A DNA stretch of 64,000 bases, taken from NCBI GenBank assembly GCA_004359435.1, contig PTET01000003.1, forward strand, positions 182,273-246,272. Reading direction: 5' to 3'. The notes beneath the pieces were generated by a model. That model ran no database searches. It saw only the letters and a program-made list of their open reading frames with translations, and had not been told where the DNA came from. This document shows, piece after piece, positions 28,747 through 60,095 of the stretch (within the stretch, counting starts at the first letter, position 1; every line of letters starts with the position of its first letter). A program made the translations under genes and the position numbers. The DNA is from Flavobacteriaceae bacterium (GTDB taxonomy: Bacteria > Bacteroidota > Bacteroidia > Flavobacteriales > Weeksellaceae).

Positions 28747-28754
28747 TACTTTTG
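28747..28754 (+). promoter_or_regulatory. Promoter -7 element for outer-membrane protein pair
   Basis: TACTTTTG fits TAnnTTTG; the ATG at 28785 is 31 bases further on. Confidence 0.65.
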
Positions 28755-28784
28755 CGCAGAATTTTACTAACTAAATGTAATAAC

Positions 28785-29498
28785 ATGAAAAAACTTTTAC
28801 TAATCTTAAGTTGTGCCTTATCAACCTTTGCGGTGGCACAAAACCAAGGTTCTACTCAAAAAGGAAAAATTTTGGTAGAAGCCAACACTACTGTAGGTAG
28901 ATTTGGAGAGAACAAAAAAAATGCTGCAGGACAAACTGTTGATTCACAAGGGAATGTAACAACCAACCCTATTTATGACAGAACCTACACCAATGCAGAC
29001 ACTTCTATCAACTTTGCCTCTAACGGAGACCAAACCCAATACAACTTGGGTGCAGAGGTAGGATACTTTGTAATTGACGACCTTGCCATTAAAGTTGGAT
29101 TTGGAGTAGGACAAACCTTGGTAAAAGTAACCAAAGAAAATCAAGCTTACACCAATGAAGGTGGAGAATTGGAAATTGGAGATACAGACCACTTGCCTTA
29201 TGTATTTTCTTACAAATTGGCTGCCAAATACTACATTTTAGGTCAATTCCCTCTTGAAGCAGGTTTTACTGGAATTACAACCAGAGACGAAGACGATAAA
29301 AACGTAAACAGAGCTTGGCTTGGTTTCCAACTAGGATATGCTTGGTTTATTACACCAAACGTTGCACTTGAACCTGCCATCAGATTCAACACCAACCTAT
29401 CGCTAGGAAACGAAAACGACAAACTTGAAGAAGAAAACATCAGCACTTCTGACAGATCTAACCTTCAAGGAGTTCTTGGATTCTCTTTCTTTTTCTAA
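28785..29498 (+). CDS. Small outer-membrane beta-barrel protein
   Basis: A 237-residue protein of the OmpW/porin-like 8-stranded barrel type. The ATG at 28785 opens a signal peptide MKKLLLILSCALSTFAVAQN (cleavage after VAQ). The upstream in-frame ATG at 28752 overlaps the promoter and is rejected. Alternating strands end in LGFSFFF, with the C-terminal Phe. The mature protein begins QGSTQKGKILVEANT, an opening shared with three other proteins in this window. Ligand unknown. A 39-base gap to the OmpA gene with no terminator suggests one transcript. Confidence 0.82.
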   Translation: MKKLLLILSCALSTFAVAQNQGSTQKGKILVEANTTVGRFGENKKNAAGQTVDSQGNVTTNPIYDRTYTNADTSINFASNGDQTQYNLGAEVGYFVIDDLAIKVGFGVGQTLVKVTKENQAYTNEGGELEIGDTDHLPYVFSYKLAAKYYILGQFPLEAGFTGITTRDEDDKNVNRAWLGFQLGYAWFITPNVALEPAIRFNTNLSLGNENDKLEEENISTSDRSNLQGVLGFSFFF

Positions 29499-29537
29499 GA
29501 ACCTGTTGTTTATTTATCTAATTTAAGACTATACAAA

Positions 29538-30731
29538 ATGAAAAAATATATATACTCATTTTTTGCCCTAGCAACCATGTTTGCTACAGCACAAAATCAA
29601 CAAGCCACTCAAAAAGGGAATTTTTTAATTGAGGTAAACGGAAGTACTCCAACCTTTTTGAACGGACAAAACTCATACAGAAACCTAGGAAATACAGGGG
29701 TGAACTATTTCGCCGATGACTTTGGTTCTGGAACCCTTAAATTCTGGAGTGCAGCTGCAGAAGGAGGATACTACATCGCGGACAACTTGGCACTTATCGC
29801 CGGACTTGGTTACAATGATGTACAAGCCCAAAGTAAATCTCAAACAGGTCAAGACAAAATTGACTATGTATCTTACAAGGTTGGAGCCAAATACTATGCC
29901 CTTGGAATGATTCCACTTAGTTTAGACTACTCTTCTGCCTTTGACCAAACTGATTATTCATTGACAAAAGACATCAACTTTGTATCTCCACAACTACTTT
30001 CTGTAGGTGCAGGTTATGCCTATTTCCCAAACAACAATGTATCTATCGAGCCTTTTGTTAAATATGGATTCGATCTTTCTGAAAGAAAAGAAAACATGCT
30101 AACCGGTGGTCTTGGATTTACCGTTCACCTAGGTGCAAAAGATACACCAGTGGCCCCTCCTGCTGACCCATGTTCTAAAGGAGACCAAGACATGGATGGT
30201 GTTTGCGACAACTGGGATAAAGAATTGCCTTCTCCAGCAGGTGCACAAGTTGACAAAGACGGTGTAGCACTTGATACAGATGGAGATGGAATCATCGATC
30301 TAAACGACAAATGTGTAGATGTACCTGGAGTAGCAGAACTTCAAGGTTGTCCAAAAGTGGCTTGTAACACGGCTGAACTTACCAATACCATCAAAGGAAT
30401 TGAGTTCGACCTTAACAAAGCGATCATCAGACCAACTTCTTACTACAAACTAGACAAAGCAGCCGAAATCCTAAAAAGCTGTCCAACTAGCCAGTATTCA
30501 ATTGAAGGACACACAGACTCTAGAGGATCTGATGCATACAACCAAAATCTTTCTAACCAAAGAGCGTATGCGGTTAAACAATACCTAGAAGGAAAAGGAG
30601 TTCAGCAAGGACAACTTTCTGCCATCGGTAAAGGAGAATCTGACCTTCTTTTCAAAGAATGTAACCCTGCAACCGCTTGTGAGGAATACAAAAACGAGGC
30701 AAACAGACGTGTAATTTTCGTAGAAAAATAA
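29538..30731 (+). CDS. OmpA-family protein with N-terminal barrel and TSP3 calcium-type repeats
   Basis: A 397-residue envelope protein: signal peptide (1-18, FATAQ), barrel (about 20-205), calcium-binding thrombospondin type 3 segment (KGDQDMDGVCDNWDKE and DTDGDGIIDLNDKCVDVPG, about 212-268) and a C-terminal OmpA peptidoglycan-binding domain (YSIEGHTDSRGSDAYNQNLS and NRRVIFVEK). It tethers the outer membrane to the cell wall. The barrel part resembles the preceding gene in its opening (QQATQKGNFLIEVNG), so a duplication with a fused OmpA tail is likely. Confidence 0.93.
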   Translation: MKKYIYSFFALATMFATAQNQQATQKGNFLIEVNGSTPTFLNGQNSYRNLGNTGVNYFADDFGSGTLKFWSAAAEGGYYIADNLALIAGLGYNDVQAQSKSQTGQDKIDYVSYKVGAKYYALGMIPLSLDYSSAFDQTDYSLTKDINFVSPQLLSVGAGYAYFPNNNVSIEPFVKYGFDLSERKENMLTGGLGFTVHLGAKDTPVAPPADPCSKGDQDMDGVCDNWDKELPSPAGAQVDKDGVALDTDGDGIIDLNDKCVDVPGVAELQGCPKVACNTAELTNTIKGIEFDLNKAIIRPTSYYKLDKAAEILKSCPTSQYSIEGHTDSRGSDAYNQNLSNQRAYAVKQYLEGKGVQQGQLSAIGKGESDLLFKECNPATACEEYKNEANRRVIFVEK

Positions 30732-30750: not shown

Positions 30751-30787
30751 AAAAGGTCCGACAATTTGTCGGACCTTTTTTTTTGAC
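30751..30787 (+). terminator. Terminator after OmpA-family gene
   Basis: Perfect 13 bp stem AAAAGGTCCGACA / TGTCGGACCTTTT with a 3-base loop and a long T run. Confidence 0.95.
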
Positions 30788-30891: not shown

Positions 30892-31587
30892 ATGAAAAAA
30901 TCTTTCTTAGCCCTGCAAGCGGCCTTTGTTTTGTTTTGCTCGGCTGTTTCGGCGCAGGTTCATCCCAAAGAAGCCTACGCAGATATCAAAGCGTGGAACA
31001 AAGTTTTGGATGCCAAACACAAATCCTACGACCCCAACAATTTGAAGGAAATCACCGTAAGTGAGGTGATAGACAAAAATGGAGCAGATTTGAACATAGA
31101 ATTCATCATTCATGCACCCTTTGAGGATGTTTCCAACTACTATTATCAGTACCAAACCATGTCTTTTATCCACAAAGGCTATATTATGACGGTGAGAAAA
31201 CCCGGCTCCACAGACTTTTATGGAAGCGGTTCTTTCAGAACCAATACTTTGTCAGGATTTAGCTACAGCGAAATCGTAGATGAAAACTCTGCAAATGGAA
31301 ACAAATACCATGTGGAATCGCCCATGGTAGAAACCCAAAAAGGAAGTTACCAGGTGATGGATTTGGGCAATGGTAGCACCAAAGTGAAGTTTTCTATGCA
31401 GCTCAAATTCAAAGCTCCATTTACAGGTTTCAAAGCGATGTACAAATTTATCAATGCGGCGAACATAGAGAGCATGTACACAACCAAATCCCTTTTGGAG
31501 GAAGATTCCAAATTCTATACCCGCATCACTTGGCTGGATGAGCTCATCAAAAAGAAGGGATGGCCAACGCCACCACCGATGAAATAA
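30892..31587 (+). CDS. Secreted START/SRPBCC-like protein, tandem paralogue 1
   Basis: A 231-residue exported protein. The ATG at 30892 opens a signal peptide (SFLALQAAFVLFCSAVSAQ); the in-frame ATG 42 bases upstream has no coding character. The mature N-terminus VHPKEAYADIKAWNKVLDAK is followed by a START-like lipid-binding fold (about 55-200: APFEDVSNYYYQYQTMSFI, GSTKVKFSMQLKF) and a conserved tail SLLEEDSKFYTRITWLDELI ending KKGWPTPPPMK. Ligand unknown; periplasmic or outer-membrane location inferred. First of three adjacent copies. Confidence 0.8.
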   Translation: MKKSFLALQAAFVLFCSAVSAQVHPKEAYADIKAWNKVLDAKHKSYDPNNLKEITVSEVIDKNGADLNIEFIIHAPFEDVSNYYYQYQTMSFIHKGYIMTVRKPGSTDFYGSGSFRTNTLSGFSYSEIVDENSANGNKYHVESPMVETQKGSYQVMDLGNGSTKVKFSMQLKFKAPFTGFKAMYKFINAANIESMYTTKSLLEEDSKFYTRITWLDELIKKKGWPTPPPMK

Positions 31588-31612
31588 CATTTGATTTGGC
31601 TTTGAACTTCTT

Positions 31613-32311
31613 ATGAAAAAAATCAGAAATTTTCTTCTTGCCTTTTCCCTGCTGGTTTTGGGGCAAAGGGTAATGGCTCAGGTCTATCCACCCGAAACTT
31701 ATACAGACCGAAAGCAGTGGAACAAAGTTTTGGTTGAAAAAATCCAAAGTTACGACCCCAAAAACCTCAAAGACATCAAAGTAACAAAAGAAGTCAAAGA
31801 CGGTGGTTTGTTTCTTGTTTCCATCATTGAAATTGATGCACCTTTCCAAAATGTAACAGAGTTTTTTTATCGATACCAAAATCTTTCCTTTCTCTACAAA
31901 AACAATTTGTTTTTGGTCAAAATTCCAGGAGAGACAGATTTTTTTGGTACAGGTTCCATTCGAGAAAGCATTTCTCCAGGTATAAAATTTGATGAAACCA
32001 TGCTCAAAAATACGCCTTCTAGCAGCAGTTACACCCTGAAAAATCCCCTTTTGGAATTTCACCAAGGAGATTACGATTTTGTCGAATTGCCCAATGGAAA
32101 AACCCAAATGACAGTTCATTGGAAAGTCAAATTCAAACGAAAATTCTTGCAAAATGAAAAAAGTTATCTTACCCTTGCAGATGGGGTTGTGATGACGTTT
32201 TATATGGCCAAATCTCTTTTGGAAGAAGATTCTTCCTTTTACAAAAGAATTACTTGGCTGGATGAAATCATTCAAAAGAAAGGATATCCAACCCCACCTA
32301 CATACAAATAA
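31613..32311 (+). CDS. Secreted START/SRPBCC-like protein, tandem paralogue 2
   Basis: A 232-residue paralogue of the preceding gene. The signal peptide ends GQRVMAQ, then VYPPETYTDRKQWNKVLVEK, the shared opening motif. The lipid-binding-like core contains APFQNVTEFFYRYQNLSFL and GKTQMTVHWKVKFKRKF. The tail SLLEEDSSFYKRITWLDEII and KKGYPTPPTYK is nearly identical to its neighbours. It is the most divergent of the three in the middle (Lys-rich ESISPGIKFDETMLKNTPSS). It starts 25 bases after copy 1 and ends 9 bases before copy 3. Confidence 0.8.
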   Translation: MKKIRNFLLAFSLLVLGQRVMAQVYPPETYTDRKQWNKVLVEKIQSYDPKNLKDIKVTKEVKDGGLFLVSIIEIDAPFQNVTEFFYRYQNLSFLYKNNLFLVKIPGETDFFGTGSIRESISPGIKFDETMLKNTPSSSSYTLKNPLLEFHQGDYDFVELPNGKTQMTVHWKVKFKRKFLQNEKSYLTLADGVVMTFYMAKSLLEEDSSFYKRITWLDEIIQKKGYPTPPTYK

Positions 32312-32320
32312 TACTTACTT

Positions 32321-33016
32321 ATGAAAAATCAAAAATTTACCGCGGTCCTTTTGGGATTATTTATGTACACAGGGGTTTCCGCCCAAGTTTATCCACCAGA
32401 AACCTATACAAATCGAAAGGAGTGGAACAAAGTATTGGACGAAAAAACCAAATCTTTCGACCCCGAAAACATCCCAGGAGTAGAAAACTCCCAAGAAATC
32501 AAAGATGGAAAACTGCTCATGAAAGCCAAAGTTATCCTAGATGCACCCTATGATGACGTTACCAAGTTTTTCTACCAGTACCAAAACATTTCTTATCTCT
32601 ACAAGGGCTACACCATGGTGGTGAAAACCCCAGGTGAGAAAGAGTTTTTCGGCGCTGGGTCCCAAAGAGAAAGCAGCATCATGGGCCTTAGCTACAAAGA
32701 AACCTTAGTTGAAAACAGATTGGATTACCAAGAATGGGTAGCCGTTTCCCCATTGGTAAAATACCAAAAGGGAACCTACCATTTTACCGATTTGGGAGGT
32801 GGAAAAACCCAAATGGACATCACCATGGATGTGGAATTCGTACCCTTTATACAAAACATGAAATTCATTTACAAATTTATTGAACAAGGAAACCTTACTT
32901 CCATGTATACCTTCAAATCCTTGTTGGAAGAGGACCCCACTTTTTACAAAAGAATCACTTGGCTAAATGAGCTCATTCAAAAGAAAGGATGGCCTACACC
33001 TCCACCCATTGAGTGA
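32321..33016 (+). CDS. Secreted START/SRPBCC-like protein, tandem paralogue 3
   Basis: A 231-residue paralogue with signal peptide (LGLFMYTGVSAQ), opening VYPPETYTNRKEWNKVLDEK, core APYDDVTKFFYQYQNISYLY and KTQMDITMDVEFV, and tail SLLEEDPTFYKRITWLNELI with KKGWPTPPPIE. It is closest to copy 1 in the tail and to copy 2 in the opening. The three share order of motifs and length, so they arose by tandem duplication and are probably cotranscribed. No enzyme residues are evident. Confidence 0.8.
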   Translation: MKNQKFTAVLLGLFMYTGVSAQVYPPETYTNRKEWNKVLDEKTKSFDPENIPGVENSQEIKDGKLLMKAKVILDAPYDDVTKFFYQYQNISYLYKGYTMVVKTPGEKEFFGAGSQRESSIMGLSYKETLVENRLDYQEWVAVSPLVKYQKGTYHFTDLGGGKTQMDITMDVEFVPFIQNMKFIYKFIEQGNLTSMYTFKSLLEEDPTFYKRITWLNELIQKKGWPTPPPIE

Positions 33017-33053: not shown

Positions 33054-33581
33054 ATGAAAATCAATACCAAAACCACATTTCTGTTTGTACTTTATTTGTC
33101 TTTGAGCAATATGAGCTTTGGACAAACCACCTCCAAAATCAACAAAAACAACGACAAGTACGACTCCGTGATTGTAGAAACTGTCATCAACGCTACCCCA
33201 GAGAAAGTTTGGTCTTTGCTTACCAATTGGGAGGTTCTCCCAACCCTCAGCGAAAGTCTTCCCTACAAAAAAATTGAAGGAGGAGAAAATGAAGGAGACA
33301 AGCTTTCTTTTTATATGAAAAGTGGGTCGAAGTTCAAAATCAATATGCTCAAAAAAGTGCCCAATCAGTCCCTTCACTGGGGAATGGATATGGGGAATAT
33401 TTTCGCCTTCATCCATGGCTATGACATCATAGACAACCACGATGGTACGGTGACGTTTCACCAAGAAGAAAAATACTTTGGGATTGTAAAACTCACCACC
33501 ACTCAAAAAATGATGGAAGACTACGAAAAAACCTACATAGAGCTCAACAACAATTTGAAGGCTTTGGCAGAGAAAGACTAG
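33054..33581 (+). CDS. Secreted SRPBCC-fold protein
   Basis: A 175-residue exported protein with a signal peptide (TFLFVLYLSLSNMSFGQ) and a polyketide-cyclase/SRPBCC domain (about 35-170: VIVETVINATPEKVWSLLTNWEVLP, then YDIIDNHDGTVTFHQEEKYFG). The family binds hydrophobic ligands in a helix-grip fold. It lacks the opening and tail motifs of the three genes before it, but is likely in the same transcript (37-base gap, shared terminator). Ligand unknown. Confidence 0.8.
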   Translation: MKINTKTTFLFVLYLSLSNMSFGQTTSKINKNNDKYDSVIVETVINATPEKVWSLLTNWEVLPTLSESLPYKKIEGGENEGDKLSFYMKSGSKFKINMLKKVPNQSLHWGMDMGNIFAFIHGYDIIDNHDGTVTFHQEEKYFGIVKLTTTQKMMEDYEKTYIELNNNLKALAEKD

Positions 33582-33630: not shown

Positions 33631-33680
33631 AAAAAGCCCTCAAAAATTTTCACAAATGAAAATTTTTGAGGGCTTTTTTG
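33631..33680. terminator. Strong bidirectional terminator
   Basis: Perfect 20 bp stem AAAAAGCCCTCAAAAATTTT with an 8-base loop (33651-33658) and its complement at 33659-33678. A and T runs on both sides let it serve the SRPBCC gene (+) and the lipoprotein gene (-). Confidence 0.93.
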
Positions 33681-34161: not shown

Positions 34162-34271
<110 letters not shown>

Positions 34272-34358
34272 AGGTTTCACAGAGATTCTGTGTATTAGTT
34301 AACATAAGAAAAAAAAGAAGTAAAATTAAAAGGCAATCAATCATTTCAAGCGTGTGAT

Positions 34359-37123
<2,765 letters not shown>

Positions 37124-37197
37124 TCACACGCTCTTGTGATTAATTATTTTTAACTTTATTTCTTTCTTCTTATGTCAATGATCTTTTCATTAATTAA

Positions 37198-37223
37198 CAA
37201 TTGATAATTCACAATTGATAATT
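37198..37223. repeat. Short repeat CAATTGATAATT in the tRNA-Ala/23S spacer
   Basis: CAATTGATAATT occurs at 37198-37209 and 37212-37223, and again in the tRNA-Ile/tRNA-Ala spacer at 37322-37333. The unit is nearly self-complementary. No function can be assigned. Confidence 0.7.
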
Positions 37224-37229
37224 AATTCG

Positions 37230-37303
37230 TGGAGAATATCGGAGTCGAACCGATGACCTCCTGCGTGCAAGGCAGGCGCTCTAGCCAGCTGAGCTAATCC
37301 CCC
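37230..37303 (-). tRNA. tRNA-Ala (anticodon TGC)
   Basis: Minus-strand cloverleaf starting GGGGGATTAGCTCAG. Anticodon arm CTGCCTTGCACGCAG gives UGC. T arm ATCGGTTCGACTCCGAT. CCA is not encoded. Confidence 0.97.
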
Positions 37304-37425
37304 GTTTGAATGGATATTTATCAATTGATAATTGATAACTATTTCTCAATTGAGCTCTTAACCACTTCTAGAATTTCCTATATCCTTATATCCCTCTCCC
37401 TTCTCTCCTTCCCTCAAATAATTTG

Positions 37426-37499
37426 TAGTCTCAGGCAGACTCGAACTGCCGACCTCTACATTATCAGTGTAGCGCTCTAACCAGCTGAGCTATGAGACT
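37426..37499 (-). tRNA. tRNA-Ile (anticodon GAT)
   Basis: Minus-strand cloverleaf starting AGTCTCATAGCTCAG. Anticodon arm CTACACTGATAATGTAG gives GAU. T arm GGCAGTTCGAGTCTGCC. Acceptor stem AGTCTCA / TGAGACT; CCA is not encoded. Confidence 0.97.
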
Positions 37500-37610
37500 C
37501 TCCCTACTTTCAAACGTTAGGTTTGGGTATATATTTTATTAAATTTAAGAATAAAAAACAAAAACGCAAGCCAAAGTCAATCCCTTCAAAAAGTTTTGGA
37601 CTCTTCTCTA

Positions 37611-39130
<1,520 letters not shown>

Positions 39131-42619: not shown

Positions 42620-42651
42620 TTGCAAGATACAGATTAATTTTCATAAATTTG
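42620..42651 (+). promoter_or_regulatory. SRP RNA promoter
   Basis: TTG at 42620-42622, 21-base spacer, TAAATTTG at 42644-42651; the RNA begins about 5 bases later. Confidence 0.85.
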
Positions 42652-42655
42652 CAAC

Positions 42656-42757
42656 TGGCAAGTCCTGCACAACGTGCTCCTGTCGAATCCCCCAGGGTGG
42701 GAACGCAGCAAGGGTAGATGGTTGAGCTGTGTGATGCAGGTAGCTTGCCTTTTTTTC
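42656..42757 (+). ncRNA. ffs: Signal recognition particle RNA, bacterial small type
   Basis: The RNA scaffold of SRP, partner of Ffh (encoded at 49.8 kb). The conserved tip is visible: CGAATCCCCCAGGGTGGGAA, followed by CGCAGCAAGGGTAGATGG. The ends GGCAAGTCCTGCA and TGCAGGTAGCTTGCC form the long closing stem, and a T7 run ends the transcript at about 42750-42757. Length is about 95 nt, the 4.5S-like form. Confidence 0.93.
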
Positions 42758-51379: not shown

Positions 51380-52231
51380 ATGTTAAGAATAGCGATACAA
51401 AAAAAAGGGAGATTATACGATGAAAGTACAGACCTTTTAAAAGAAATTGGACTGAAAATTTCTGGGAATCAGTCTGCGCTGAAAGTTTCAGCAAAAAACT
51501 TTCCCCTTGAAATTCTATTTCTTAGAAACTCAGACATCCCCAAATATGTAGAAAGTGGAATTGTGGATCTTGGAATTATCGGTGAAAACACACTCCTTGA
51601 AAAAGAAAAAAACGTGAATACCGTGATGCAGCTTGGATTTTCCAAATGCAGACTTTCTCTGGCTGTACCCAAAGATCAAGAGTACAATGGCATAGGTTTT
51701 TTTCAGGGAAAAAGAATTGCCACCTCCTATCCCAACAGCCTTTCCAAATACCTGAAAGAAAAAAACATTCAGTGTGAAATCCATGAAATTGCAGGTTCGG
51801 TAGAAGTAGCACCTTCCATTGGACTTTCAGATGGAATCTGCGATTTGGTAGAATCGGGTAACACTCTTTTTGTCAACGGCATGAAAGAGGTTGAAGTGAT
51901 GAGTCATTCTCAGGCAGTGCTTATTTCAACACATAATTTAAGTTCTGAAAAGCAAACGCTTTTAGACCAAATTACTTTTAGGATTGAATCCACCCAAAGA
52001 GCCAAAGAATACAAATACATTGTCTTTAATATTCCCAACGATAAAATTGTAGCGGCCAGCCAAATGCTTCCTTCTATGAAAAGCCCAACGGTGGTACCAC
52101 TTAACCTTGAAAATTGGTCAGCCATTCATTCCGTTCTTAAAGAAGCAGACTTTTGGCAATCTATTGAACAATTAAAATCCATTGGCGCCCAGGGAATACT
52201 TGTGATGCCCATTGAAAAAATGATTCTTTGA
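51380..52231 (+). CDS. hisG: ATP phosphoribosyltransferase, long form
   Basis: First step of histidine synthesis: condenses ATP and PRPP. The 283 residues match the long (HisGL) type with a C-terminal ACT-like domain for histidine feedback (about 210-283, ending GAQGILVMPIEKMIL). Motifs include LRIAIQKKGRLYDEST and the PRPP loop ESGNTLFVNGMKEVEV. The stop overlaps the hisD start in TGATG. It leads an eight-gene cluster. Confidence 0.97.
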   Translation: MLRIAIQKKGRLYDESTDLLKEIGLKISGNQSALKVSAKNFPLEILFLRNSDIPKYVESGIVDLGIIGENTLLEKEKNVNTVMQLGFSKCRLSLAVPKDQEYNGIGFFQGKRIATSYPNSLSKYLKEKNIQCEIHEIAGSVEVAPSIGLSDGICDLVESGNTLFVNGMKEVEVMSHSQAVLISTHNLSSEKQTLLDQITFRIESTQRAKEYKYIVFNIPNDKIVAASQMLPSMKSPTVVPLNLENWSAIHSVLKEADFWQSIEQLKSIGAQGILVMPIEKMIL

Positions 52232-55674: not shown

Positions 55675-56601
55675 ATGGATTACCTTGTGCATACTTTAAG
55701 TCTAAAACCAGATTACCAGGGTGAGGTTGTGGCTCAATTATATCAAAGAAAAAAGGAAGTTTCCTCTTCTGTAGCCTATTTATTTATCCATGGTTTTGCC
55801 GATTACTTTTACCAAAAACAGCATGGAGATAACATAGGGGAAAAACAGATGGATTTCTATGCCTTGGAACTAAGAAAGTATAACCAAAGTAAACTGCCGC
55901 ACCAATCCTATTTTTACTGTAGAAATCTAGAGGAATATTTTGAAGAGATAGACCAAAGCATCGAATTTTTGCAAGAAAAAAACTATCAACAAATCATCAT
56001 CGAAGGTCACTCTATGGGCGGATTGGTTCTGGCGATGTACCTTGCCAATGGGAGACACAGAGACAAAATTTCTCTTGGAATTTTTAACGGCCCATTTTTT
56101 GACTTCAACATTCCTTCTTATCTCAAAATTCTTTTGCCTGCTTCAAAATACATGTCAAAAGTATTTCCCTATCTGAAAGATTATGTTGGAAGTCCAAGTT
56201 TCGACCACTACAACCACTCTCTACACAAAGACTTCAAAGGCGAATGGGATTTTGAAATTGAAGTAAAATCTCCACCCAAAGCCAAGGTTTACTATGCATG
56301 GGTTTGGGCGATCTACTCTGCCCAAAAAGAACTTAAAAAAGGGCTAAACATCCCACAACCCTTGCTTGTGATGCATAGCGATAAATCTTGCAGTGGAGCA
56401 GTTTGGACAGATGAAATTATGACCAGCGATGCAGTTTTAAACATAAACCACATCAAAGAAAATGCGCCATTTCTTGGAAAAAATGTTGAAATCGTCCAGA
56501 TAGAAAATGCCATGCATAATGTTTTTCTGTCTCAAAAACATGTTAGAGAAAAAGCCTTAGAAATCACTTTGAATTTTATTGAAAAAAATCTATCAAAATG
56601 A
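55675..56601 (+). CDS. Alpha/beta-hydrolase (serine hydrolase) within the his operon
   Basis: A 308-residue cytoplasmic alpha/beta-hydrolase of the lysophospholipase/S33 type. The nucleophile is S113 in the elbow [14 protein letters not shown], the oxyanion segment is FIHGFADYF (37-45), and the catalytic His is probably in [10 protein letters not shown] near the C-terminus, with an Asp in VMHSDKSC as a candidate acid. It has no signal peptide. It sits 4 bases after the hisB/hisH frame and its end overlaps hisA by 4 bases (ATGA), so it belongs to the operon. It has no known place in histidine synthesis; the substrate is unknown. Confidence 0.85.
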
Positions 56602-58132: not shown

Positions 58133-58756
58133 ATGCAGCCTTTTTCCGTAGAACAGATAGATTTTAATAAATCAAACGGACTTGTCCCAGTTGTGGTACA
58201 AAACGTTAAAACCAAAGATGTTTTGATGTTGGGTTACATGAATCCATTAGCCCTAGAGAAAACCTTAGAAGAAAAAAAGTTGACTTTCTTTTCTCGATCC
58301 AAAAATAGACTTTGGACCAAAGGTGAAAGCTCTGGTAATTTTTTGCACTTGGTATCTATTTCTTTAGACTGCGACAACGATACTTTGCTTGTTTTGGCCA
58401 ACCCCGACGGCCCTACTTGTCACACAGGTAGTACAACCTGCTGGGGAGAACCAGAGCTTAAAAATCCAAATCAATTTGTTGACGATCTAGAGAAACTTAT
58501 TGAAGACAGAAAACAAGACCAAAGTGGAAAATCTTACATCCAAAGTTTGTATCAGGCTGGAACCCACAAAATCGCTCAAAAAGTAGGTGAAGAAGCCACA
58601 GAACTTGTGATTGAATCACTCATGGACAATGATGATTTGTTTTTGGAAGAAGCATCAGACCTGTATTTCCATTATCTAATTTTGCTCCACGATAGAGGTT
58701 ATAGTTTTGGCGATGTGGTAAATAGACTAGAAGAAAGACACAAAAAAACCAAATAA
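58133..58756 (+). CDS. hisIE: Bifunctional PRA-CH cyclohydrolase / PR-ATP pyrophosphatase
   Basis: Carries out steps 2 and 3 of histidine synthesis. The 207 residues have the cyclohydrolase domain first (VLMLGYMNPLALEKTLEEKK, WTKGESSGN, ISLDCDNDTLLV, GPTCHTGSTTCW with Zn-binding Cys) and the pyrophosphatase domain second (about 115-207: AGTHKIAQKVGEEATELVIE). The gap from hisF is 43 bases with no terminator. Full length. Confidence 0.97.
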   Translation: MQPFSVEQIDFNKSNGLVPVVVQNVKTKDVLMLGYMNPLALEKTLEEKKLTFFSRSKNRLWTKGESSGNFLHLVSISLDCDNDTLLVLANPDGPTCHTGSTTCWGEPELKNPNQFVDDLEKLIEDRKQDQSGKSYIQSLYQAGTHKIAQKVGEEATELVIESLMDNDDLFLEEASDLYFHYLILLHDRGYSFGDVVNRLEERHKKTK

Positions 58757-59219: not shown

Positions 59220-60095
59220 ATGAAAATTGCCATTCTTTCTAGAAACTCTAAGCTCTATTCCACCAAGCGTTTGGTTGAAGCTGCCAAAGCCAAAGGCCAC
59301 GAAGTAGTGGTAATAGACCACCTAAAATGCATTATAGAAATCGAAAAGAAAAGGCCAAAAATCTATTATGAAGGGAATTACATTTCAGACATAGACGCCA
59401 TTATTCCAAGAATTGGCGCCTCAGTTACTTTCTATGGAACAGCGGTAGTTAGACAGTTTGAGATGATGAAGGTATTTACCACAGTAGAATCTCAAGCCCT
59501 CGTTCGATCTAGAGACAAACTAAGAAGCCTTCAAGTGCTTGCCAGAGCTGGTGTTGGACTGCCCAAAACTGCTTTTACCAATTACGCCAAAGATTCCGAT
59601 CACTTAATTGAGGCTGTAGGTGGTGCTCCGCTGGTACTGAAACTTCTAGAGGGAACCCAAGGACTAGGGGTGGTACTTGCGGAAACCAAAAATGCTGCAA
59701 CCTCGGTAATGGAAGCCTTTCATGGACTGAAAGCCAGAGTAATCGCCCAAGAATTTATCAAAGAATCTGGAGGAGCAGACATCCGGGCTTTTGTGGTGGG
59801 TGGTGTTGTAGTGGGTGCAATGAAAAGACAAGGCAAAGAAGGAGAATTTAGATCTAACCTACATAGAGGAGGCTCTGCCTCGCTTATAGAGCTCAGCGAA
59901 GTAGAAGAACTCACCGCGCTTAAAGCCTGTAAAGCACTGGGATTAGGCATTGCAGGGGTAGACATGCTTCAATCCACAACAGGTCCTTTGGTATTAGAGG
60001 TAAATTCATCTCCAGGACTAGAAGGTATAGAAGCGGCTACTGGCAAAGACATCGCCAGAGAGATTATCAAATTTGTAGAGAGAAATGTCGACTAA
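59220..60095 (+). CDS. rimK: RimK-family ATP-grasp glutamate ligase
   Basis: Adds glutamate residues to the C-terminus of ribosomal protein S6 in E. coli; bS6 is one of the proteins shaping the 16S 3'-end pocket in Bacteroidota. The 291 residues fit the family: [42 protein letters not shown]-grasp [18 protein letters not shown] and the Mg site [15 protein letters not shown]. The end overlaps the next gene by 11 bases. Whether S6 is the target here is inferred. Confidence 0.93.

Follow-up and report, generated by a model that had tools for sequence, protein, structure and literature searches.

In the window analysed here, the whole stretch of 64,000 nucleotides of this Flavobacteriaceae genome, three paralogous genes (copies 1-3) lie in a row on the forward strand and are followed by a fourth gene (gene 4) for an exported protein of the SRPBCC superfamily (Table 1). 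Three adjacent genes of 231-232 codons had been described in the initial annotation, and open reading frames of these lengths are present at the corresponding places; for copy 1, an in-frame TTG upstream offers an alternative start that would lengthen the product to 245 aa. The genes are closely spaced, with gaps of 25 bases between copies 1 and 2, 9 between copies 2 and 3, and 37 between copy 3 and gene 4. Terminator-like hairpins stand on both sides of the four genes, which fits, and supports, a single transcription unit. The annotation had also placed a fourth SRPBCC protein in the same unit as copies 1-3, and this agrees with our results: gene 4 matches the Pfam family PF10604 (Polyketide_cyc2) just above the family cut-off (27.6 bits against 27.4), and the hairpins bracket all four genes.

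Table 1. Positions of the four-gene unit, its limits and the conserved C-terminal tails, in window coordinates.
Feature	Position	Strand	Remarks
Terminator-like hairpin	30751-30779	+	13 pairs, with a T run; follows the OmpA-like gene and marks the upstream limit
Copy 1	30892-31587	+	ORF of 231 aa; predicted signal peptide to A21, mature start at Q22
Tail of copy 1	31486-31575	+	KSLLEED..WPTPP, equivalent to copy 3 residues 199-228
Copy 2	31613-32311	+	ORF of 232 aa; predicted mature start at Q23
Tail of copy 2	32210-32299	+	Conserved, C-terminal
Copy 3	32321-33016	+	ORF of 231 aa; predicted mature start at Q22
Tail of copy 3	32915-33004	+	Residues 199-228; predicted helix 208-222 beyond the SRPBCC core
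Gene 4	33054-33581	+	175 aa, exported SRPBCC protein; PF10604 just above cut-off
Terminator-like hairpin	33631-33678	+	Follows gene 4 and marks the downstream limit

The genes around the unit have housekeeping functions (IMP dehydrogenase, an OmpA-like protein, an rRNA operon, D-Ala-D-Ala ligase and RNase HII), and no lipid-pathway genes that would point to a ligand were found among them. Two adjacent genes for outer-membrane beta-barrel proteins lie upstream of the unit (28752-30731); the product of the second ends in an OmpA domain, and it is mainly over this C-terminal part that its best relatives in the family match. Downstream, a complete rRNA operon (16S, two tRNAs, 23S and 5S; 34162-39129, minus strand) is convergent with the four genes. 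Farther along, in this genome of probable Flavobacteriales affiliation, the window contains a small SRP RNA that matches Bacteroidales_small_SRP (42649-42754; RF04183, 91.5 bits) and a histidine-biosynthesis cluster with hisG at 51380 and hisIE at 58133. The cluster includes an alpha/beta hydrolase gene (55675-56601) and, beyond the hydrolase, a gene for a RimK-type ATP-grasp ligase (59220-60095).

The N-termini of copies 1-3 each show a lysine-bearing start, a hydrophobic stretch and then a boundary of the form SA/QV, MA/QV and SA/QV, respectively (cleavage at the slash); in gene 4 the boundary is FG, followed by QTT. These signal peptides were recognised by eye and from hydropathy. A glutamine at position +1 corresponds to the Bacteroidetes Q-rule, which marks substrates of signal peptidase I that are destined for the periplasm or beyond (PMC5837995), and all four genes have a signal of this type with Gln at +1. 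A signal peptide had been noted on each copy before, and the agreement with the Q-rule bears this out: judged from these N-terminal patterns, copies 1-3 are almost certainly exported, with Sec/signal peptidase I type signal peptides.

The mature proteins of the three copies share 42-48% of their residues in pairwise comparisons (42-47% between copy 1 and copies 2 and 3), and this identity is distributed very unevenly. Near the mature N-terminus, copies 2 and 3 have the motif ETYTxRKxWNKVL, and copy 1 has a divergent version of it, EAYADIKAWNKVL, in accordance with the shared opening, weaker in copy 1, that had been described earlier; the N-terminal segment as a whole (residues 22-47, here called the head) is 62-77% identical between copies. 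The core is only 34-40% identical, and the stretch directly before the tail (residues 179-198) only 10-50%. The C-terminal tail KSLLEED..FY.RITWL.E.I.KKG.PTPP is common to all three, with variants such as FYTRITW in copy 1, WLNEL in copy 3 and GYPTPPT in copy 2. It is the most conserved window of 30 columns, with 23 of the 30 identical in all copies, a value that no 30-column window reached when the columns of the mature alignment were shuffled 20,000 times. The earlier view of a nearly invariant tail as the most conserved part of these proteins is thus confirmed. In an alignment with mixed SRPBCC proteins, KSLLEED marks the place where the domain ordinarily ends, so that the remainder of the tail (FY.RITWL.E.I.KKG.PTPP) is an extension beyond the domain. 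Gene 4 has neither the head nor the tail.

Nonsynonymous divergence (dN) is 0.11-0.14 in the tail versus 0.56-0.60 in the core, while synonymous differences (pS) are equally saturated in both (0.68-0.74 in the tail, 0.63-0.75 in the core). Gene conversion is therefore rejected as the source of the conserved tail: with synonymous sites as saturated as elsewhere and a low dN, the tail is old and has been maintained by purifying selection on the protein. The proposal of diversification by duplication with a retained tail is supported by this pattern. Two further explanations of the tail were considered and rejected or disfavoured. A role as a general sorting tag is rejected for the host genome, in the whole of which the tail is present only in copies 1-3. 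An amphipathic helix lying on a membrane surface is disfavoured because the tail helix is no more amphipathic than its own shuffles; the hydrophobic moment of the head likewise does not exceed that of shuffled versions.

An AlphaFold model of copy 3, built from an alignment of three rows, reached moderate confidence (pLDDT 70.5, pTM 0.69). Its N-terminal part comprises a helix (32-44), two strands (54-61 and 64-74) and a second helix (80-94), and the remainder five more strands, a long helix (181-204) and a separate helix (208-222). This order of elements fits the helix-grip fold, in which an antiparallel, curved sheet wraps around a long helix near the C-terminus, and a single-sequence model of copy 2, of low confidence (pLDDT 53), shows broadly the same order of strands and helices. 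Foldseek searches of the PDB with the copy 3 model gave 229 matches at E<=0.001 with a probability of 1.00. The best 50 of these 229 are all proteins of the Bet v 1/START (helix-grip) fold, with a best E of 6.6e-6 and sequence identities to copy 3 of 7-17%; they include PYR/PYL receptors, Bet v 1/PR-10 proteins, norcoclaurine synthase, cytokinin-binding proteins, the aromatase/cyclase ZhuI, MSMEG_0129 and relatives from structural genomics. TM-scores to the listed matches are modest (0.35-0.47 normalised by query, 0.46-0.66 by target), and the rmsd of many matches is high, as is expected given the uncertain ends of the model. Foldseek comparison with viral models yielded weak matches to START domains of giant viruses and added little. 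On the basis of this model, copies 1-3 very likely have the SRPBCC (Bet v 1/START) helix-grip fold, in agreement with the helix-grip-like core of the initial annotation.

At the level of sequence families the placement is less straightforward. No Pfam or NCBIfam model matches copies 1-3 above its cut-off, and no PDB entry matches them by sequence; neither PF01852 (START) nor PF10604 matches them at E<=1, and they are absent from the results of the PF10604 search of the host genome. START proper is accordingly ruled out at the profile level. Two PF10604 genes exceed the cut-off in the 1.65 Mb of the host genome. The only one besides gene 4 (L076, 1492-2034; host C2:258778-259224) encodes a protein of 180 aa that starts with a hydrophobic segment and whose core is closer to those of ordinary SRPBCC proteins.

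A profile of the triplet gave only weak matches outside the host genome when searched against genomes of the class, phylum and family. Four of the 15 weakly matching loci with an intact frame (L018, L019, L013 and L068) encode PF10604 proteins over the cut-off, which, with two such genes per 1.65 Mb in the host genome, would be far above random expectation. The three longest alignments of the triplet profile are among these four Bacteroidota proteins, to which the similarity is weak (E 0.00146-0.061 per genome), and for two of them, L018 and L019, the alignment keeps the register of the triplet core. Other loci belong to unrelated families or to none (L006, L007, L009, L011, L012 and L014; L015, L024, L069, L073, L074 and L075). 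When profiles were compared, triplet residues 67-205 aligned at E 2.3e-4 with a mixed SRPBCC set, which had been picked partly with the triplet profile itself; comparison by hhalign with gene 4 and its relatives alone gave no domain match. We therefore regard the triplet as a highly divergent branch of the SRPBCC proteins, probably nearer to PF10604 than to START proper and formally a member of neither. The label START-like therefore holds at the superfamily level, where Foldseek and the weak in-register matches to PF10604 proteins agree, and fails for START proper. No clear match to a characterised enzyme family was found.

No true homologue was found beyond the host genome among about 1,300 distinct Bacteroidota genomes, which were searched in overlapping sets of 59 relatives, 396 genomes of the order, 395 of the class, 395 of the phylum and 317 of the family (33 genera). 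Two pattern scans of GTDB species genomes, which reach close relatives only, were negative. Phages, plasmids and viral contigs likewise contained no match, and a phage or plasmid origin was discarded on these grounds. Synteny beside the OmpA gene in relatives revealed no hidden orthologues beyond chance, the loci found there matching the C-terminal OmpA domain only and so perhaps not being the orthologous places. The host genome (1.65 Mb, 83% complete) is the sole member of its genus in the set, and its family comprises at least 33 genera. Among the genomes searched, the triplet family thus appears by sequence comparison to be restricted to the host lineage, and copies 1-3 have the appearance of a new branch, confined to this lineage, of a very widespread ligand-binding fold.

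The best reading of these data is that copies 1-3, once exported, would act as carriers or receptors of hydrophobic ligands, their cores having diverged and their contact surface being held in common. One transcription unit would make three paralogous exported proteins of the SRPBCC fold together with a fourth exported SRPBCC protein. An ancient duplication gave rise to the three copies, in which a diverged core lies between an N-terminal segment and a C-terminal extension, both conserved under purifying selection. In the periplasm or at the outer membrane, each core would bind a lipid or a small hydrophobic compound, and divergence may have fitted the cores to different ligands or to several forms of a single one. 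No catalytic role forms part of this reading. The common head and tail would provide the same contact surface, be it for a common partner, for each other or for closure of the fold. For this whole chain, from exported SRPBCC paralogues down to predicted ligand binding, we estimate a probability of about 50%. Taken separately, binding of hydrophobic ligands is a reasonably probable candidate function of copies 1-3, and a shared docking surface made by head and tail is a tentative suggestion; docking or membrane contact by the tail, as put forward in the initial annotation, is a plausible putative role.

The retention of head and tail in all three copies can have other explanations. On the one hand, the proteins might be subunits of an assembly in the envelope, in which head and tail form a homo- or hetero-oligomer and the core is a ligand-free scaffold. 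That head and tail are jointly kept while the core drifts, and that all three copies belong to one unit, is what such an assembly would lead one to expect, but the oligomer is hypothetical, and members of the SRPBCC/Bet v 1-like fold usually have an internal cavity; we consider this explanation unlikely. The conservation pattern itself fits a common partner as well as self-assembly and does not decide between them. On the other hand, the tail might close its own fold, its helix packing on the core of the same chain and being kept for stability, with no partner involved. The model places the tail helix right after the long C-terminal helix and its amphipathicity is ordinary, both of which speak for such a role; yet the core surface that it touches should then be kept too, and the helix before the tail is poorly kept (residues 179-198), which argues somewhat against a purely intramolecular role and makes this explanation similarly unlikely. 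That copies 1-3 are exported enzymes (cyclases, hydrolases or isomerases) acting on related hydrophobic substrates from an SRPBCC scaffold is rather improbable: PF10604 takes its name from polyketide cyclases, and several enzymes, such as ZhuI and norcoclaurine synthase, occur among the structural matches, but no biosynthetic genes are neighbours, the conserved positions are concentrated in head and tail rather than in the core, and conservation is lowest in the core, which speaks against a catalytic site shared by the copies, since such a site would have fixed core residues.

Irrespective of function, the triplet is a real lineage-restricted family of exported proteins with a predicted SRPBCC fold and an unusual conserved extension. 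To our knowledge, exported SRPBCC proteins of Bacteroidota have hardly been studied, and the transit of hydrophobic molecules across the periplasm of Bacteroidota is a largely open field. The predicted carriers or receptors, a triplicated set in a reduced genome that combines a diverging core with a strongly selected extension, offer a compact example, open to testing, of ligand diversification combined with a shared contact surface; should neither a ligand nor a partner be found, they would represent an ordinary lineage-specific expansion of a common fold.

Among known families, Polyketide_cyc2 (PF10604) resembles the triplet in its helix-grip domain, predicted for copies 1-3, in the weak in-register matches of the triplet profile to members from other Bacteroidota and in the membership of the co-transcribed gene 4. 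In contrast, copies 1-3 go undetected by the PF10604 model and add an N-terminal helix, an extra strand and the C-terminal extension, all outside the family domain. START (PF01852) and the protein MSMEG_0129/Mtsp17 (PDB 5z8o) share the predicted fold class, and 5z8o has the highest target-normalised TM-score among the listed matches (0.66); however, the START profile does not match copies 1-3, and Mtsp17 is tied to transcriptional regulation rather than lipid transport (PMC8049324). PYR/PYL and Bet v 1/PR-10 proteins, ligand-binding helix-grip proteins with the best Foldseek E-values (6.6e-6 to 5e-5), are plant proteins of low identity to copy 3 and imply no exported bacterial counterpart. The sterol-binding proteins BstA/B/C have folds other than SRPBCC. 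They nevertheless set a precedent for dedicated proteins of the bacterial envelope that bind hydrophobic ligands (PMC10942540). A long shot is a set of exported carriers, restricted to this lineage, whose three SRPBCC cores would prefer different ligands but dock through one head-and-tail module and so deliver several hydrophobic ligands to the same envelope partner; it would be an SRPBCC-based counterpart of shuttle carriers such as MlaC and LolA.
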